DNA of 64,000 nt, from the NCBI GenBank assembly GCA_016235595.1, contig JACRJX010000007.1, positions 364,583 to 428,582 on the forward strand. The letters run 5' to 3'. Under the pieces are notes generated by a model. It saw nothing but the letters and a program-made list of their open reading frames with translations, was not told where the DNA came from and did no database searches. Of this stretch, positions 50,801-59,193 are shown in pieces (position 1 is the stretch's first letter; every line of letters begins with the position of its first letter). Position numbers and translations under genes: made by a program. The DNA comes from Verrucomicrobiota bacterium (lineage in GTDB: Bacteria > Verrucomicrobiota > Verrucomicrobiia > CAIQCK01).

Positions 50801-51090
50801 ATTGCGGCGAGCCGATGGCGGTCCGCGCCAGCGCGCGCGGCACGTTCCTCGGCTGCTCCGGCTACCCGAAGTGCAAGACCACCAAGCCGCTGCCGCCTGA
50901 ACTTGCCGAAAAGCTCGGCGTGAGCGCCACGGCCCCGGCCGCGCCCGCCAAGGCCGCGCCGGAGATGACCGATGAGAAATGCGAGAAATGCGGCTCGCCG
51001 ATGCTCATCCGCGCCGGGCGGTTTGGGAAGTTCATGGCCTGCTCGGCCTATCCCGCGTGCAAGACCACCAAGAAGCTGCCGCCCGCGTAG
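47857..51090 (+). CDS. topA: DNA topoisomerase I with eight C-terminal zinc ribbons
   Basis: LVIVESPAKAKTINKYLGRDYVVKASMGHIRDLP, DPDREGEAIAWHL, TYMRTDS; eight CxxC...C(x5)C modules at the C-terminus. Confidence 0.96.
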   Translation: MSDKNLVIVESPAKAKTINKYLGRDYVVKASMGHIRDLPSKGLSVDIENNFEPTYEVSPLKRKVVAELKTAAETAATVFLAPDPDREGEAIAWHLCELLAKNKKDRARFKRVTFNEITKNAIQQAFVAPGDIDQNRVDSQQARRILDRIVGYKISPLLWRRVRGARSAGRVQSVAVRIIVEREREIRAFKAQEYWSVEAELRKLVDPRTPFRARLMRINEERLIDAEKGLFLLGDQATADAVKAELDGASWKVEKVEEQPRKRNPFPPFITSTLQRAAATNLRFGTDQTMRIAQQLYEGVELGDEGSVGLITYMRTDSLTVSREAQAEALAYIRETHGAEFAPETPNAYRSRETAQGAHEAIRPTSARRTPESVAPYLDRQQLALYTLVWKRFVASQMTPAQMLIKSVEVLAKNDRVAQPRNFWFRASSTQVTFPGFLKVYGVEEGDEDKMAEEGGEPIPPLVAGEGLELIELKPEQHFTEPPPRYSEATLVKALEELGIGRPSTYAPTVSTIQKRTYVEKDKGRLKPTELGEITTDLLVGAFPDLLDVQFTAKMEEELDEVESGKVEWHELLARFYKDFKPTLDKALETKPPELTHFKCEDCGSPMVIKHGRNGEFLTCSTYPKCKSAANFTRDEAGNLHIVEPEKLHIKCPRCNAHMIVKGGKSGEFLACSNYPDCKGTMNFTRDDSGEIHAAPAEKTEVACPKCNSPMVVRSGKTGEFLACSAYPDCKSTMGFTRSAEGNITPQKLEDSGIACEKCGSPMVVRNSRRGPFLACSGYPKCRNAMSFTRDEATGKITPKPRAAAMVEVSEKCEKCGAPMAIKGSRRGSFLACTAYPKCKSTKPLSDELKQKLEEARAKIGGVEPSAGGAVKPAAKPKAQLTDIACEKCGKPMAVRTSARGQFLGCSGYPKCRNAKPLPPDLEIKAAAPAAEAASKMPVEATAQQLKQKKSAARAKAGAATDAAPKTAAKPKAQLTDIACENCGEPMAVRASARGTFLGCSGYPKCKTTKPLPPELAEKLGVSATAPAAPAKAAPEMTDEKCEKCGSPMLIRAGRFGKFMACSAYPACKTTKKLPPA

Positions 51091-52088
51091 CCGTCCCGCC
51101 GGACGACCTGACGCGCGACTTCCTGCAATACCAGCAGGCCGAGCGCAACGCCTCGCGCCTCACGCTCCGCAACTACGAGCAGTGCCTGCGCGAGTTCCGC
51201 GTCTGGCATCAGGGTGGGCCGGGCGTCCCGCACGGCCAATCATCAAATCAATCCGCCGCGCGGGACGCGCGGCCCACTCTAAACTGGCGCGCGCTCGAGC
51301 CGTTCCAGTTCCGCCGCTATCTCATGGCGCTGATGCAGGCTGAAATGAAACGCACCACCATCGCGCTGCGCATCTCCAGCCTGCGCTCGTTCTACCGGTT
51401 CCTCGTCCGGCGCGGCGTCGTGAAGGACAACCCGCTCAGCGGCCTGATAATGCCCAAGCGTGAGAAACGCCTGCCGCGATTCCTCACCATCCAGCAGGTG
51501 GAGACGCTCTTCAACGCGCCGCTGAAGGCCGCCGAGCCGCCCGCCGAAGGAAAGAAACGCCCGCGCGGCCGGCCCGTCGCGCCGTGGGTGCCGCATCGCG
51601 ACAAGGCCATCCTCGAAACCATCTACAGCGCCGGCCTGCGCGTCCACGAACTCGTCGGCCTCAACCGCGAACACATTGATCTCCTCGGCGAAGTGCTGAG
51701 CGTCCGCGGCAAGGGCGCCAAGGAACGGCTCTGTCCCGTCGGCCGGCCCGCGCTCGACGCCATCGAGACCTGCTGGGCCAGGCTGCCGCCGGAGTTTCCC
51801 AAGGGGCGCAACGCGCCGGCGTTCCTCGGCAACAACGGCCGCCGGCTCAACGCCCGCGAGGTCCAGCGCGCGATGAAGAAGTATCTGAGGATGGCCGGCC
51901 TCGGCGTGGACATGACGCCCCACAAGCTGCGCCACAGCTTCGCGACGCACCTGCTCGACGCCGGCGCCGACCTGCGCAGCGTGCAGGAACTCCTCGGCCA
52001 CGTCAGCCTCTCGACCACGCAGGTCTATACCCACGTCACCAGCGCGCGGCTGAAACAGGTTTACGACAAGACCCACCCGCGCGCGTGA
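51057..52088 (+). CDS. Tyrosine recombinase XerC/XerD-like
   Basis: LRVHELVGLNREHIDL, GKGAKERLCPVG, TPHKLRHSFATHLLDAGADLRSVQELLGHVSLSTTQVYTHV; start uncertain (GTG 51057 proposed, overlapping topA). Confidence 0.88.
   Translation: MQDHQEAAARVAVPPDDLTRDFLQYQQAERNASRLTLRNYEQCLREFRVWHQGGPGVPHGQSSNQSAARDARPTLNWRALEPFQFRRYLMALMQAEMKRTTIALRISSLRSFYRFLVRRGVVKDNPLSGLIMPKREKRLPRFLTIQQVETLFNAPLKAAEPPAEGKKRPRGRPVAPWVPHRDKAILETIYSAGLRVHELVGLNREHIDLLGEVLSVRGKGAKERLCPVGRPALDAIETCWARLPPEFPKGRNAPAFLGNNGRRLNAREVQRAMKKYLRMAGLGVDMTPHKLRHSFATHLLDAGADLRSVQELLGHVSLSTTQVYTHVTSARLKQVYDKTHPRA
51211..51280. repeat. 70-nt palindromic element inside the XerC/D ORF
   Basis: Arms 51211-51236 and 51255-51280 are inverted copies (23/26 matches) around an 18-nt loop. 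Confidence 0.85.
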
Positions 52089-52170: not shown

Positions 52171-52245
52171 AGGGCTGGCGCACTCCAAGACGCTCGCGCG
52201 CTTCTGAAGGCCGCATCAACAACGCGGCAGCGTCTTGGCGGCCCT
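52171..52245. repeat. Intergenic inverted repeat
   Basis: CCAAGACGCT (52185-52194) and AGCGTCTTGG (52229-52238), with outer AGGGC/GCCCT. Confidence 0.6.
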
Positions 52246-52332
52246 CCGCCGCTTTACAGACGCCCACCGAACACGCGGTGAACAACGCCAGACTCTCCAT
52301 GAGGTTCATGGACCGTCGGCTGTCAATTCCCG

Positions 52333-52443
52333 GCCGGCCTGAAAGGCCGGCAGTAAACCAGCCCAGGGCAAGCACGCGAAGCGTGCGCCACCCTGGGTTT
52401 ACGACGTAAAATCAATAGCCGCCCTGACAGGGCGGCGGTAAAC
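52333..52443. repeat. Composite palindromic element with GAN-triloop hairpins and GTAAAC flanks
   Basis: Hairpins GCCGGCCT-GAA-AGGCCGGC (52333-52351), GCACGC-GAA-GCGTGC inside CCCAGGG...CCCTGGG, and GCCGCCCT-GAC-AGGGCGGC (52418-52436); GTAAAC at 52353 and 52438, GTTTAC at 52397. Confidence 0.85.
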
Positions 52444-52458
52444 TCGCCGCAACTCACC

Positions 52459-55239
52459 ATGAAGCCCATCCTGTCTCTCATCTCGCTCGGCGCGCTGCTG
52501 CTGTCCTGCGCTGCCACCGGGGCCGCAACGGTGCCCGACGGCACGCTCCGCCTTCATCCTGACAACCCGCACTATTTTCAATGGCGCGGCAAGCCGGCCG
52601 TGCTCATCACCTCCGCCGAACACTACGGCGCGGTGCTCAACCTCGACTTCGATTACGTGAAGTATCTCGACACGCTCGCCCGCGACGGCCTCAACAACAC
52701 GCGCACGTTCACGGGTGGCGCTTACTTCGAGCCGGAAGGCGCGTTCAAGATCGCCCGCAACACGCTCGCGCCAGCGTCCGGCCGATTCATCGGCCCGTGG
52801 GCGCGCAGCGACCAGCCCGGCGCGGCCGACGGTGGCAACAAGCACGACCTCACGCGCTGGAACGACGCCTACTTCGCCCGCTTCCGCGACTTCACGGCGC
52901 AGGCCGGCAAGCGCGGCGTGGTCGTCGAGGTCAATCTTTTCTGCCCGTTCTACAAGGACGACCAGTGGCGGCTCAGCCCGTTCCACATCGCCAACAACGT
53001 CAACGGCCTCGGCGGCATCACGCGCACCAACGTCTATACGCTCGACAAACACGGCGGCCTGCTCGCGGTGCAGGAGCGGATGGTCCGCAAGTTCGTCAAG
53101 GAACTGCGCGGCTTCGACAACGTCTATTACGAGATCTGCAACGAGCCTTACTTCGGCGGCGTCACGCTGGAGTGGCAGCGCCGCATCGCCGACGTCATCG
53201 CCGACGCGCAGAAGGACCATCCGAACAAGAAGCTCATCGCGCAGAACATCGCCAACAAGACCGCCAAGGTGCGCGACCCGCATCCGGCCGTCTCGATCCT
53301 CAACTTCCACTACACCTATCCGCCCGTGGCCGTTGCCGAGAACTACGCGCTCAACCGCGTCATCGGCGAGAACGAGACGGGCTTCCGCGGCACGCGCGAC
53401 GAGGTCTATCGGGTCGAGGCGTGGGATTTCATCATCGCGGGGGGCGGGCTGTTCAACCACCTTGACTACTCGTTCACCGCCGGCCACGAGGACGGCACGT
53501 TCGCCTATCCGCCGACGCAGCCCGGCGGCGGCAGCGTGAAGTTCCGCCGCCAGCTTCGCGTCCTGCACGACTTCATCAACCAATTCGACTTCGTGAAGAT
53601 GAAACCCGCTGACAAACTGGTGTGCGCGGGCCGCAGCGACGACGTTTCCATCCGCGTGCTGGCCGAGCCGGGCCGGCAGTATGCGATCTACATCCACAAC
53701 AGCCCGATGCCGCGCTGGAAGGACAAGGCGAAGCTCAACACCGGCGAGTTTCAGGTGAACCTCGAACTCGACGCGCCCGCCTCCAGCTATCGCGCCGAGT
53801 GGATCGAGCCGGCGACCGGCAAAGTGCTGCTTGCCGAAACGAAGCAACACGCTGGCGGCGCGCTCCCGTTGAGTTCGCCGCATTACGCGCAGGACGTGGC
53901 GTTACGGCTGACGGCGGCGACCGACCGGGTCATCGCATCGGCCAAGGACGACGGCTATCGCGGCATCTGGTTCACGCTGGGCCAGAAGTCCGAATTCGGC
54001 GACAAGTATTCCGGCGGGCTGGGCACCTACACGGCCAACCACGTGCCGATGGCCATCTACTCGAAGGAGGCGGACAAGACGTTCTTCGTCTATGGCGGCG
54101 CGAAGCAGGGCAAGCGGCACCTGCTGGCGATGGCGTCCTACTACGATCACCGCCGCGGCGTCGTGCCGCGCCCGACCATCGTGCATGACAAGCAGGGCGT
54201 GGATGATCCGCACGACAACCCCAGCCTCGCCATGGACGGGAAGGGCCACCTCTGGGTCTTCGTCAGCGGCCGCGCGAAGAAACGGCCCGGCATCATCTAT
54301 CGCAGCACGAAGCCCTACAGCACCGACGAGTTCGAGCAGGTTGGTCAGCGCGAGTTCACCTACCCGCAGCCGCGATGGTTCGAGGGGCGCGGCTTCCTGT
54401 TCCTGTTCACCAAATACACCAAGGGCCGCGAGCTTTACTTCAACACCAGTCCCGACGGGCGGAACTGGACGCCCGACGTGAAATTCGCCGGCATGGGCGG
54501 CCACTACCAGACCAGCCACGTGCGGGGCAACCGCGTCATCACCGCCTTCAACATGCATCCCGGCGGCAACGTGGATAAGCGGACCAACCTCTACTTCCTC
54601 CAGACCGACGACTTCGGCAAAACGTGGCGCAATGTCCGCGGCGAGCCGGTGGAGTTGCCGCTCGCGGATCCGAAGAACCCCGCCCTTGTGCATGACTACC
54701 AGGCCGGGCAACGGAACGTCTATATCCACGACCTCGATCTGGACCGCAATGGCCGGCCAGTGATTCTGTTCATCACGAGCGCCGGCCACCAACCGGGGCC
54801 GGGCGGCGACCCGCGATGGTGGACCGTCGCGCACTGGCTTGGCGACAAATGGAAGTTCACGCAGGTGACCCGCGCGAACCACAACTACAGCACCGGCTCC
54901 CTCTACATCGAGGCCGACGCGTGGCGGATCATCGGGCCGACCGAACGCGGCCCGCAGCCGGTCGGTTCCGGCGGCGAGGTCGGCGTCTGGGCGAGCCGCG
55001 ACGCGGGCAAGACCTGGAGCAAGGAGCGCGACGTGACGCGGGGCAGCGCGAGGAACCACAACTACGTCCGCCGCCCGGTGAACGCGCATCCCGGTTTCTA
55101 CGCGTTCTGGGCCGACGGAAACCCGGACGAGCTCTCGCCGTCGAAGCTCTACTTCACCAACAAGGCCGGTGACAAGGTCTGGCAGTTGCCCGACGCCATG
55201 AGCGGCGGCGGCAGCGCGCCGGCAGAATTGAACCGCTGA
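52459..55239 (+). CDS. Secreted two-domain protein: GH clan A-like TIM barrel fused to BNR_4-type propeller
   Basis: Signal peptide; YYEICNEPYF (NEP motif) and VIGENETGF; C-terminal DGYRGIWFTLGQ...SEFGDKYSGGLGTYTANH BNR_4-like. Confidence 0.75.
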   Translation: MKPILSLISLGALLLSCAATGAATVPDGTLRLHPDNPHYFQWRGKPAVLITSAEHYGAVLNLDFDYVKYLDTLARDGLNNTRTFTGGAYFEPEGAFKIARNTLAPASGRFIGPWARSDQPGAADGGNKHDLTRWNDAYFARFRDFTAQAGKRGVVVEVNLFCPFYKDDQWRLSPFHIANNVNGLGGITRTNVYTLDKHGGLLAVQERMVRKFVKELRGFDNVYYEICNEPYFGGVTLEWQRRIADVIADAQKDHPNKKLIAQNIANKTAKVRDPHPAVSILNFHYTYPPVAVAENYALNRVIGENETGFRGTRDEVYRVEAWDFIIAGGGLFNHLDYSFTAGHEDGTFAYPPTQPGGGSVKFRRQLRVLHDFINQFDFVKMKPADKLVCAGRSDDVSIRVLAEPGRQYAIYIHNSPMPRWKDKAKLNTGEFQVNLELDAPASSYRAEWIEPATGKVLLAETKQHAGGALPLSSPHYAQDVALRLTAATDRVIASAKDDGYRGIWFTLGQKSEFGDKYSGGLGTYTANHVPMAIYSKEADKTFFVYGGAKQGKRHLLAMASYYDHRRGVVPRPTIVHDKQGVDDPHDNPSLAMDGKGHLWVFVSGRAKKRPGIIYRSTKPYSTDEFEQVGQREFTYPQPRWFEGRGFLFLFTKYTKGRELYFNTSPDGRNWTPDVKFAGMGGHYQTSHVRGNRVITAFNMHPGGNVDKRTNLYFLQTDDFGKTWRNVRGEPVELPLADPKNPALVHDYQAGQRNVYIHDLDLDRNGRPVILFITSAGHQPGPGGDPRWWTVAHWLGDKWKFTQVTRANHNYSTGSLYIEADAWRIIGPTERGPQPVGSGGEVGVWASRDAGKTWSKERDVTRGSARNHNYVRRPVNAHPGFYAFWADGNPDELSPSKLYFTNKAGDKVWQLPDAMSGGGSAPAELNR

Positions 55240-56125: not shown

Positions 56126-57309
56126 AATCATCCCTGCTTTCTCTTCTCGCGGGCGCCTGCCTGGCCGTTGTGGCGGATGCGGGTGACGTGGATTGGGGCA
56201 AGCAGGCCGCGGAGGATGCAAAACAGGACCGCACGACCATCGCCTACGACGGCAAGTCGCCGGACAAGCTCGTCTGCGACACGACCCTGCGCGAGTTGCC
56301 CGACGGTTCGTGGGCGCTGTTCATGCTGGCGGGCGATGACTTCGAGCCGTCGCCGAAGAACTACACCGGTCTCACCCGCAGCACCGACGGCGGCAAGACG
56401 TGGTCGCCGTTGCAACCCGTGGACATCGGCTTTCCGCGCGAGGGAAAAACCAGCGGCCAAGGCCCGACGGAACTGATGGTGCGCGGCAACCGCTGCACGC
56501 TGTTCTTCTCCACGCACTCCCAGACGTGGGGGCGCGACTGGAAATCGTGGATGATGCACAGCGACGATGGCTGTCGCACGTGGGGCAAACCGCGACCGAT
56601 GCCCGGCCGGCTGGCGAACTTCACCTTCATCCGCAACCACATCGTCACGCGCGACGGGCGGATTCTCATTCCGTTCCAGCATTACCTCGGCCCGCCGCCC
56701 GGCACCCCGCCACCGCCGCCGGAAGAGAAGCCGTGGCACAAGGCGCTCGCTCACTACGTCAGCAACCCGCGCAACGGCGTGCTCATGAGCCGTGACGGCG
56801 GCAAGACGTGGACCGAGCACGGCAACGTCCGGCTCACCGACAACGACCGCTACCACGGCTGGGCGGAGAACAACATCGTCGAGCTGTCCGACGGCCGCAT
56901 CGCCATGATCATCCGCGGCGACCGTCTCGGTGGCGTGCTTTACTACGCGGAATCGAAGGACGGCGGCCGCACGTGGCCGGAGTTCGCGACGAAGACCGAC
57001 ATCCCCAATCCCGGTTCGAAAGCCACACTCTATCCGCTCGGCGGTGACACCGTCGCGCTGTTGCACAACCCGAACCCGAAACACCGCAGCCCGATGGCGC
57101 TCTGGATCAGCTTCGACGGCATGAAGACGTGGCCGTATCGCCGCGTGCTCGTGCCGGAATCCTGCGACGGCCCGAAAGGGCGGATGAACTACCCCGACGG
57201 CTTCGTCAGCAAGGACAGGCAATGGCTCCACTTCGCCTTCGACGACAACCGCCACCGCGCGGTCTATTACGGCGCCAAGCTGCCGCCGCTTGCGCGATCA
57301 CACCCATGA
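56122..57309 (+). CDS. Exo-alpha-sialidase/BNR-repeat protein
   Basis: GTG start overlapping the previous stop (GTGA); BNR-like [44 protein letters not shown]. Confidence 0.8.
57181..57290 (+). repeat. Direct repeat copy 1 (3' end of sialidase CDS)
   Basis: 105/110 identical by eye to 58301-58410, constant offset of 1120 nt, no indels. Confidence 0.95.
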
Positions 57310-58300: not shown

Positions 58301-58423
58301 CGGCTGAACTACCCCGACGGTTTCGCCAGCAAGGACAGGCAATGGCTCCACTTCGCCTTCGACGACAACCGCCACCGCGCGGTCTATTGCGGCGCCAAGC
58401 TGCCGCTGCTGCCCGATCCGTGA
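58301..58423 (+). pseudogene. Orphan duplicate of the sialidase 3' end
   Basis: [40 protein letters not shown] vs [42 protein letters not shown]. Confidence 0.9.
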
Positions 58424-58836: not shown

Positions 58837-58900
58837 CGTAAGTCCCTCCTCATCCGTGTGCATCCGTGGTTAAGTTCCGTGCCGTTTCCCCGACGCTCAA

Positions 58901-59033
58901 CGTTTCACGTTTCACGCTTCACGTTTCACGTTTCACGCTTCACGTTTCACGTTTCACGCTTCACGTTTCACGTTTCACGCTTCACGTTTCACGTTTCACG
59001 CTTCACGTTTCACGCTTCCCGCTTCACGCTTCA
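58901..59033. repeat. 19-copy heptamer tandem array in a 21-bp higher-order unit
   Basis: Five copies of CGTTTCA-CGTTTCA-CGCTTCA plus four further heptamers, no interruptions. Confidence 0.97.
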
Positions 59034-59034
59034 C

Positions 59035-59193
59035 GGCCGCAAGAATCTTCCCCACACACCGCTCCGCGTCGCGCAGTTCATGCTCTCAAATCCGCACCAC
59101 CCGCCAGCCCATCCGCCGCAGCGTCCGCGTCACCCGCCGGTCCCGCGCCTTGTTTGCCACCAGTGATTGCGTGATCTTCACTTTCCTAGTGCG
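59035..59193 (-). pseudogene. Remnant of a Vsr/DUF559-type endonuclease C-terminus
   Basis: Minus-strand reading SLVANKARDRRVTRTLRRMGWRVVRI*EHELRDAERCVGKIL; the TGA (59086-59088) replaces the expected Trp of RIWEHEL; 5' portion missing. Confidence 0.72.

Follow-up and report, generated by a model that had tools for sequence, protein, structure and literature searches.

Results

A three-hairpin unit between two genes

The window analysed here, a 64,000-nt stretch of a Verrucomicrobiota genome (assembly GCA_016235595.1, contig JACRJX010000007.1), carries on its forward strand a gene for an XerC/D-like tyrosine recombinase (50979..52088; Pfam Phage_integrase, E 5.5e-36) and, downstream of it, a gene for a 926-aa protein with a BNR_4 domain (52459..55239; Pfam BNR_4, E 5e-17). 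Both lie outside the element described below, which is located in the interval between them. The same interval contains, past the xerC-like gene, an imperfect inverted repeat of 23 nt (52185-52238, 78% complementary), of which no further clear copy was seen among the loci examined.

Direct reading of positions 52333-52443 reveals two matched hairpins, H1 and H2, with a bulged middle stem, P, between them, all on the plus strand. H1 (52333..52351) has 8 bp and a GAA loop, its arms being GCCGGCCT (52333-52340) and AGGCCGGC (52344-52351); it is followed by an A and then by GTAAAC (52353-52358), within the adjoining motif GTAAACCA (52353..52360). P (52362..52397) pairs CCCAGGG (52362-52368) with CCCTGGG (52391-52397) and is capped by the apical hairpin GCACGC-GAA-GCGTGC (52372-52386). 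H2 (52418..52436), again of 8 bp, has a GAC loop between GCCGCCCT (52418-52425) and AGGGCGGC (52429-52436), and is followed by a G and a second GTAAAC (52438-52443), making up GGTAAAC at 52437..52443. From the end of this last hairpin to the ATG at 52459 there are 22 nt. Folded as DNA, the region reaches -37.6 kcal/mol (z -5.1) and none of 200 shuffled sequences was equally stable, so the cluster is not a product of chance; folded as RNA, it has a z of -4.0.

Every one of these hairpin parts had been noticed in an earlier sequence-only reading, which described two hairpins flanking a separate middle part. The copies in related genomes revise that description: H1, P and H2 belong together as a single unit, which is not a native leader of the downstream gene. 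That reading also drew attention to an inverted GTTTAC following the middle stem (52397-52402), which turns out to be specific to the window copy, its position varying in other copies.

Copies in relatives stand as convergent pairs

The window's own genome (G000; 6.65 Mb in 48 contigs, 96.75% complete, 5.6% contamination) yielded no second copy of the window subtype by BLASTN, by a model of the two outer hairpins or by a full covariance model; BLASTN with the composite sequence returned the query locus itself and otherwise matches at chance level. The outer-hairpin model found matches in genomes of the same genus and the same family, many at a fixed spacing of 83-86 nt. Its matches in four genomes at class level (G030, G057, G081 and G114) look like chance hairpins, and a search of a plasmid collection gave nothing relevant. 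The copies in relatives read as H1, NGTAAAYCA, P, about 20 nt and H2, and this unit is usually followed by its inverted copy. We therefore call it a half-unit.

From 42 aligned related half-units, all of the window's taxonomic family, we built a covariance model, which places the window half-unit at 52329..52446 (plus strand) with 101.6 bits (E 1.2e-25), the window copy being itself one of the 42 training rows. At E<=0.001 the model finds one half-unit in G000, three in G001, 15 in G002, 29 in G003, 23 in G004, one in G005 and 49 in G006. Among 91 strong half-units, 76 stand as 38 convergent pairs and none as a pair in any other orientation; the spacing is 107-141 nt in 34 pairs and 567-598 nt in the remaining four. 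Several unpaired strong half-units lie at contig ends. The window holds a half without a partner, far from either end of its contig. Dispersed copies and inverted doublets, as in canonical REP/REPIN sequences, are seen in the sister genomes, and the copy in G000 is single. The sequence-only reading had staked its case on further copies in the genome; none of this subtype exists in the G000 assembly, and the gap is explained by the copies in sister genomes together with a sibling subtype in G000 itself, described below.

The compensatory stem changes proposed from the single locus are real across the 42 copies. H1 and H2 vary on both sides of their pairs with pairing kept: seven of the eight H1 pairs show two-sided changes, as do three in H2, where 98.5% of cells are paired. 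There are 106 double-change cells, as against 39.5 in shuffles, and the covariation score is 0.289 versus 0.120 in shuffled alignments (0/500) and at most 0.063 in slid controls. P is almost invariant (97.3% of cells paired) and for that reason tells little about pairing, and its apical part is variable or missing in other copies. The motif adjoining H1 is NGTAAAY in most copies, which on the opposite strand reads RTTTAC immediately 5' of H1; alignment columns G25, T26 and A27 and the bases CAG are almost invariant there. At the 3' side of H2, GGTAA is partly conserved.

Sites occupied in one species and empty in another

Upstream of an araB-like gene, G003 and G004 carry a transposase-bearing element, G000 and G002 have a short intergenic gap alone, and G001 also lacks the element. 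Within a respiratory-type operon, identified by eye, a pair of half-units separates two genes in G002 that abut in G003. At the sites compared, the ends do not join exactly at H1, beyond which there are about 40-50 nt of additional sequence. The G002 pair (L270, about 1450-1790, on G002:C8) has at its borders an 8-nt direct repeat, TTTCATCG, present once in G003, which may be a target duplication or may reflect the overlap of the genes' stop and start codons. Both the inexact junctions and this repeat, which an IS200-type insertion does not predict, count against the explanation we favour below. Mobility at the window locus itself is not observable, since the copy there is single and unpaired and its cognate transposase is absent from the assembly.

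A cognate Y1 transposase in four sister genomes

The sequence-only reading had suggested looking for a Y1/RAYT-type transposase. We checked 33 Y1 loci, including three from G000, for the flanking subtype, and exactly four were positive: G002, G003, G004 and G006 each have one Y1 gene with the window subtype on both sides, in inverted orientation, the gene spanning the stretch from one H2 hairpin to the other. The enclosed gene encodes a 150-aa HUH/Tyr (Y1) protein. All four proteins carry DH[IV]H, WQ and YIxxQxxHH; measured against the first, the others show 62, 82 and 63% identity. They match by sequence solved transposases of the IS200/IS605 family, including that of ISHp608. In the tree, the four form a single clade (support 97/90), with the three Y1 proteins of G000 outside it; our reading of the tree is confined to its eight-row clade. 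The NCBI IS200 model NF033573 gives them 59.4, 54.8, 53.7 and 47.3 bits (cut-off 55), and the RAYT model NF047646 lists one of them, at 24.0 bits (cut-off 80).

The window was rightly said to lack a RAYT gene, and the cognate transposase of the window subtype was likewise not found anywhere in the G000 assembly (96.75% complete). The three Y1 genes of G000 were rejected as candidates: besides falling outside the clade, they have different hairpins beside them, and two are flanked by sibling subtypes. No relatives of the transposase were found in viral contigs.

Ends of the same kind in other phyla, and Acido-Lenti-1

In named genomes we gathered 80 transposase relatives, of which 78 were testable for flank repeats and 76 were scanned with the unit model. 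An inverted repeat between the flanks exceeded 40 shuffles at 63 of the 78 loci (controls, 3/43 and 3/45). The model matched on both sides at 41 of the 76 loci, on one side at 18 and on neither at 17; in the 41 cases, many outside Verrucomicrobiota, same-orientation matches flank homologous transposases. The hosts are labelled Verrucomicrobiota, Planctomycetota, Acidobacteriota, Chlamydiota and others, and labels of metagenome-assembled genomes may be wrong. On two Verrucomicrobiota contigs (L183 and L201), the relatives sit amid several half-units in both orientations, not within one enclosing pair.

On the minus strand, P plus H1 of the window copy (52335..52397) matches the Rfam family RF01687, Acido-Lenti-1, with 24.6 bits (E 0.0023), which is less than the gathering score (37); family copies score slightly under this threshold. 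In named genomes, RF01687 also matches beside transposase genes, on both sides and pointing outward; some of these matches exceed the threshold, the highest at 46.2 bits. Two above-threshold matches (38.4 bits) flank a resident Y1 gene of G000 (C14:101368-101706), which places a sibling subtype in the same genome as the window. Two Y1 genes of G000 (L015, C14:101180-101833, and L016, C32:115712-116613) have RF01687-like inverted ends of sibling subtypes, the matches on C32 being weak; the sibling hairpins are of the kind GTCCCNNNGGGAC, with further copies at C38:113340 and C10:54230. Across the phylum, RF01687 matches occur in 65 of 241 genomes, often many per genome, and 5 of 30 loci (the best match per genome) have a related transposase within 1.5 kb. 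Tandem arrays of Acido-Lenti-1 with spacings of about 72 and about 124 nt, in one orientation per array and unlike the inverted pairs, were seen in G280 (C1:769620-769882 and C1:1701174-1701838).

Discussion

We propose that the window carries a single, orphaned half of a REPIN/REPtron-like element whose mover, an IS200-type single-strand transposase, is absent from G000, and we put the probability of this reading at about 0.87. The half-unit would be one end of an originally inverted-symmetric mobile element, whose autonomous form would consist of two inverted half-units around the 150-aa transposase gene and whose common non-autonomous form would be the two half-units alone, about 230 nt overall. 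In IS608 and in TnpA-REP systems, a Y1 dimer recognizes hairpins in single-stranded DNA and carries out strand transfer. By analogy, and because NGTAAAY is conserved beside H1, we suggest that H1 is the recognized hairpin and the adjoining motif its guide. H1 and the motif would fold in single-stranded DNA, such as the lagging-strand template; a transposase dimer would then bind them and, like the enzymes of IS200/IS605 and TnpA-REP systems, cut and rejoin single strands. We infer this mechanism, as we do past mobility; the window copy would then be a relic half.

It is conceivable that the hairpins are instead a cis-regulatory element in the 5' UTR of the downstream glycosidase/BNR gene, blocking ribosome entry or terminating transcription. 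The short distance to the start codon, which had already been taken to hint at an effect on translation initiation, and the stable fold would both suit such a leader. However, the regions upstream of the closest homologues in G002, G005 and G017 have, by eye, no such element, and copies elsewhere adjoin genes unrelated to one another, which argues against a gene-specific regulator; we consider this reading highly improbable. The closest homologue in G002 follows a sulfatase-like gene and not xerC. The window hairpins may still affect the BNR gene through their position.

A structured RNA is an equally improbable origin, the repeats then being copies of the gene for an Acido-Lenti-1-like sRNA that acts as RNA. 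The minus-strand RF01687 matches, here and in related copies, are what this would predict, and strong covariation is expected of an RNA as well. Yet the inverted pairs at fixed spacing make both strands equivalent, ends of this same kind stand on either side of a transposase gene, and the positions of the copies are polymorphic between species. The elements may still be transcribed. Weinberg et al. (2010; PMC2864571) described the Acido-Lenti-1 motif, from Acidobacteria and Lentisphaerae, as probably an RNA, and not a cis-regulatory one. The motif shares with our unit the P stem, a CUGAUUUAY-like linker and the H1 hairpin, and its above-gathering matches adjoin transposase genes, whereas the Rfam model has no H2, inverted partner or transposase. 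We read Acido-Lenti-1 as what would be half of the transposon end, seen on the opposite strand.

Resemblance to REP/BIME organization was suggested from the window alone, and the relatives bear it out with dispersed copies, inverted pairs, the conserved NGTAAAY beside the hairpin, covariation and, in four sister genomes, an enclosed Y1 gene. With REP, REPIN and REPtron systems and their TnpA-REP (RAYT) proteins, the element has in common dispersed intergenic hairpins, inverted doublets and a motif at the hairpin foot (PMC6006769, PMC2817692, PMC3116915), as well as, for each family, a single cognate Y1 gene that the repeats enclose, which is the case in four genomes and, for the window subtype, not in G000. 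Hairpins with an adjoining constant motif, inverted pairs and a Y1 protein are all in place; even so, a GTAG REP/BIME of the canonical type with a standard RAYT is the least probable of the alternatives. The GTAG or GTRG at the 5' foot of a canonical REP hairpin is missing, and beside H1 the 42 copies have NGTAAAY or close variants (RTTTAC 5' of H1) instead; the ends comprise three hairpins and about 110 nt; and the IS200-like 150-aa protein has Y---Q--HH in place of the RAYT motif, with at most 24 bits from the RAYT model, against a cut-off of 80, and 47-59 from the IS200 model. The element would work like REP/RAYT, yet it has no GTAG tag and falls short of the NCBI RAYT cut-off.

The REPtron-like element that we favour also differs from other known systems. 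From IS200/IS605 elements such as IS608 and ISDra2, which share a sequence-related HUH/Tyr transposase and hairpins near the ends, it is set apart by inverted-symmetric three-hairpin ends and mostly non-autonomous copies. TIRtrons resemble it in having a Y1 transposase between non-GTAG inverted repeats, some of whose families are dimeric, but most TIRYT repeats share GGGGWSAS (Di Nocera et al., 2013; PMC3733652), and of 26 TIRYTs, 20 fall in subclass 2.1, with HTH tails (PMC6006769). With subclass 1.2 of TnpA-Y1, the transposases share their length (about 148 aa) and, as read in the alignment, DH[IV]H, WQ and Y---Q--HH. Quentin et al. (2018; PMC6006769) reported this subclass mostly from Cyanobacteria and Bacteroidetes, at low copy number, tabulating no REPs for it and describing it as generally without ends of IS200 type; the genes with these motifs here have composite ends and come from Verrucomicrobiota, Planctomycetota, Acidobacteriota and others.

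We consider it likely, with somewhat less confidence than we attach to the window copy, that these elements represent a distinct, phylum-spanning class of REPtrons, in which three-hairpin ends in inverted orientation border the subclass 1.2 IS200-like transposases, reported to be without cognate ends, and proliferate in addition as non-autonomous pairs, with Acido-Lenti-1 as one half of an end of this sort rather than an RNA in the first place. A widespread transposase subclass would thereby gain a substrate, none having been on record in the openly accessible main texts, and re-examination of a curated RNA family as a DNA element is suggested. The striking 5' hairpin cluster of the window would be an insertion relic and not a dedicated leader. 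Matched pairs of transposases and ends from many phyla also provide material for testing how domesticated REP systems originated from single-strand transposases.

We note, finally, two further repeats in the window: a 110-nt direct repeat with 95% identity, its copies 1120 nt apart (57181-57290 and 58301-58410), and a tandem heptamer-like repeat, ACGTTTC/ACGCTTC, across about 170 nt (58872-59046).
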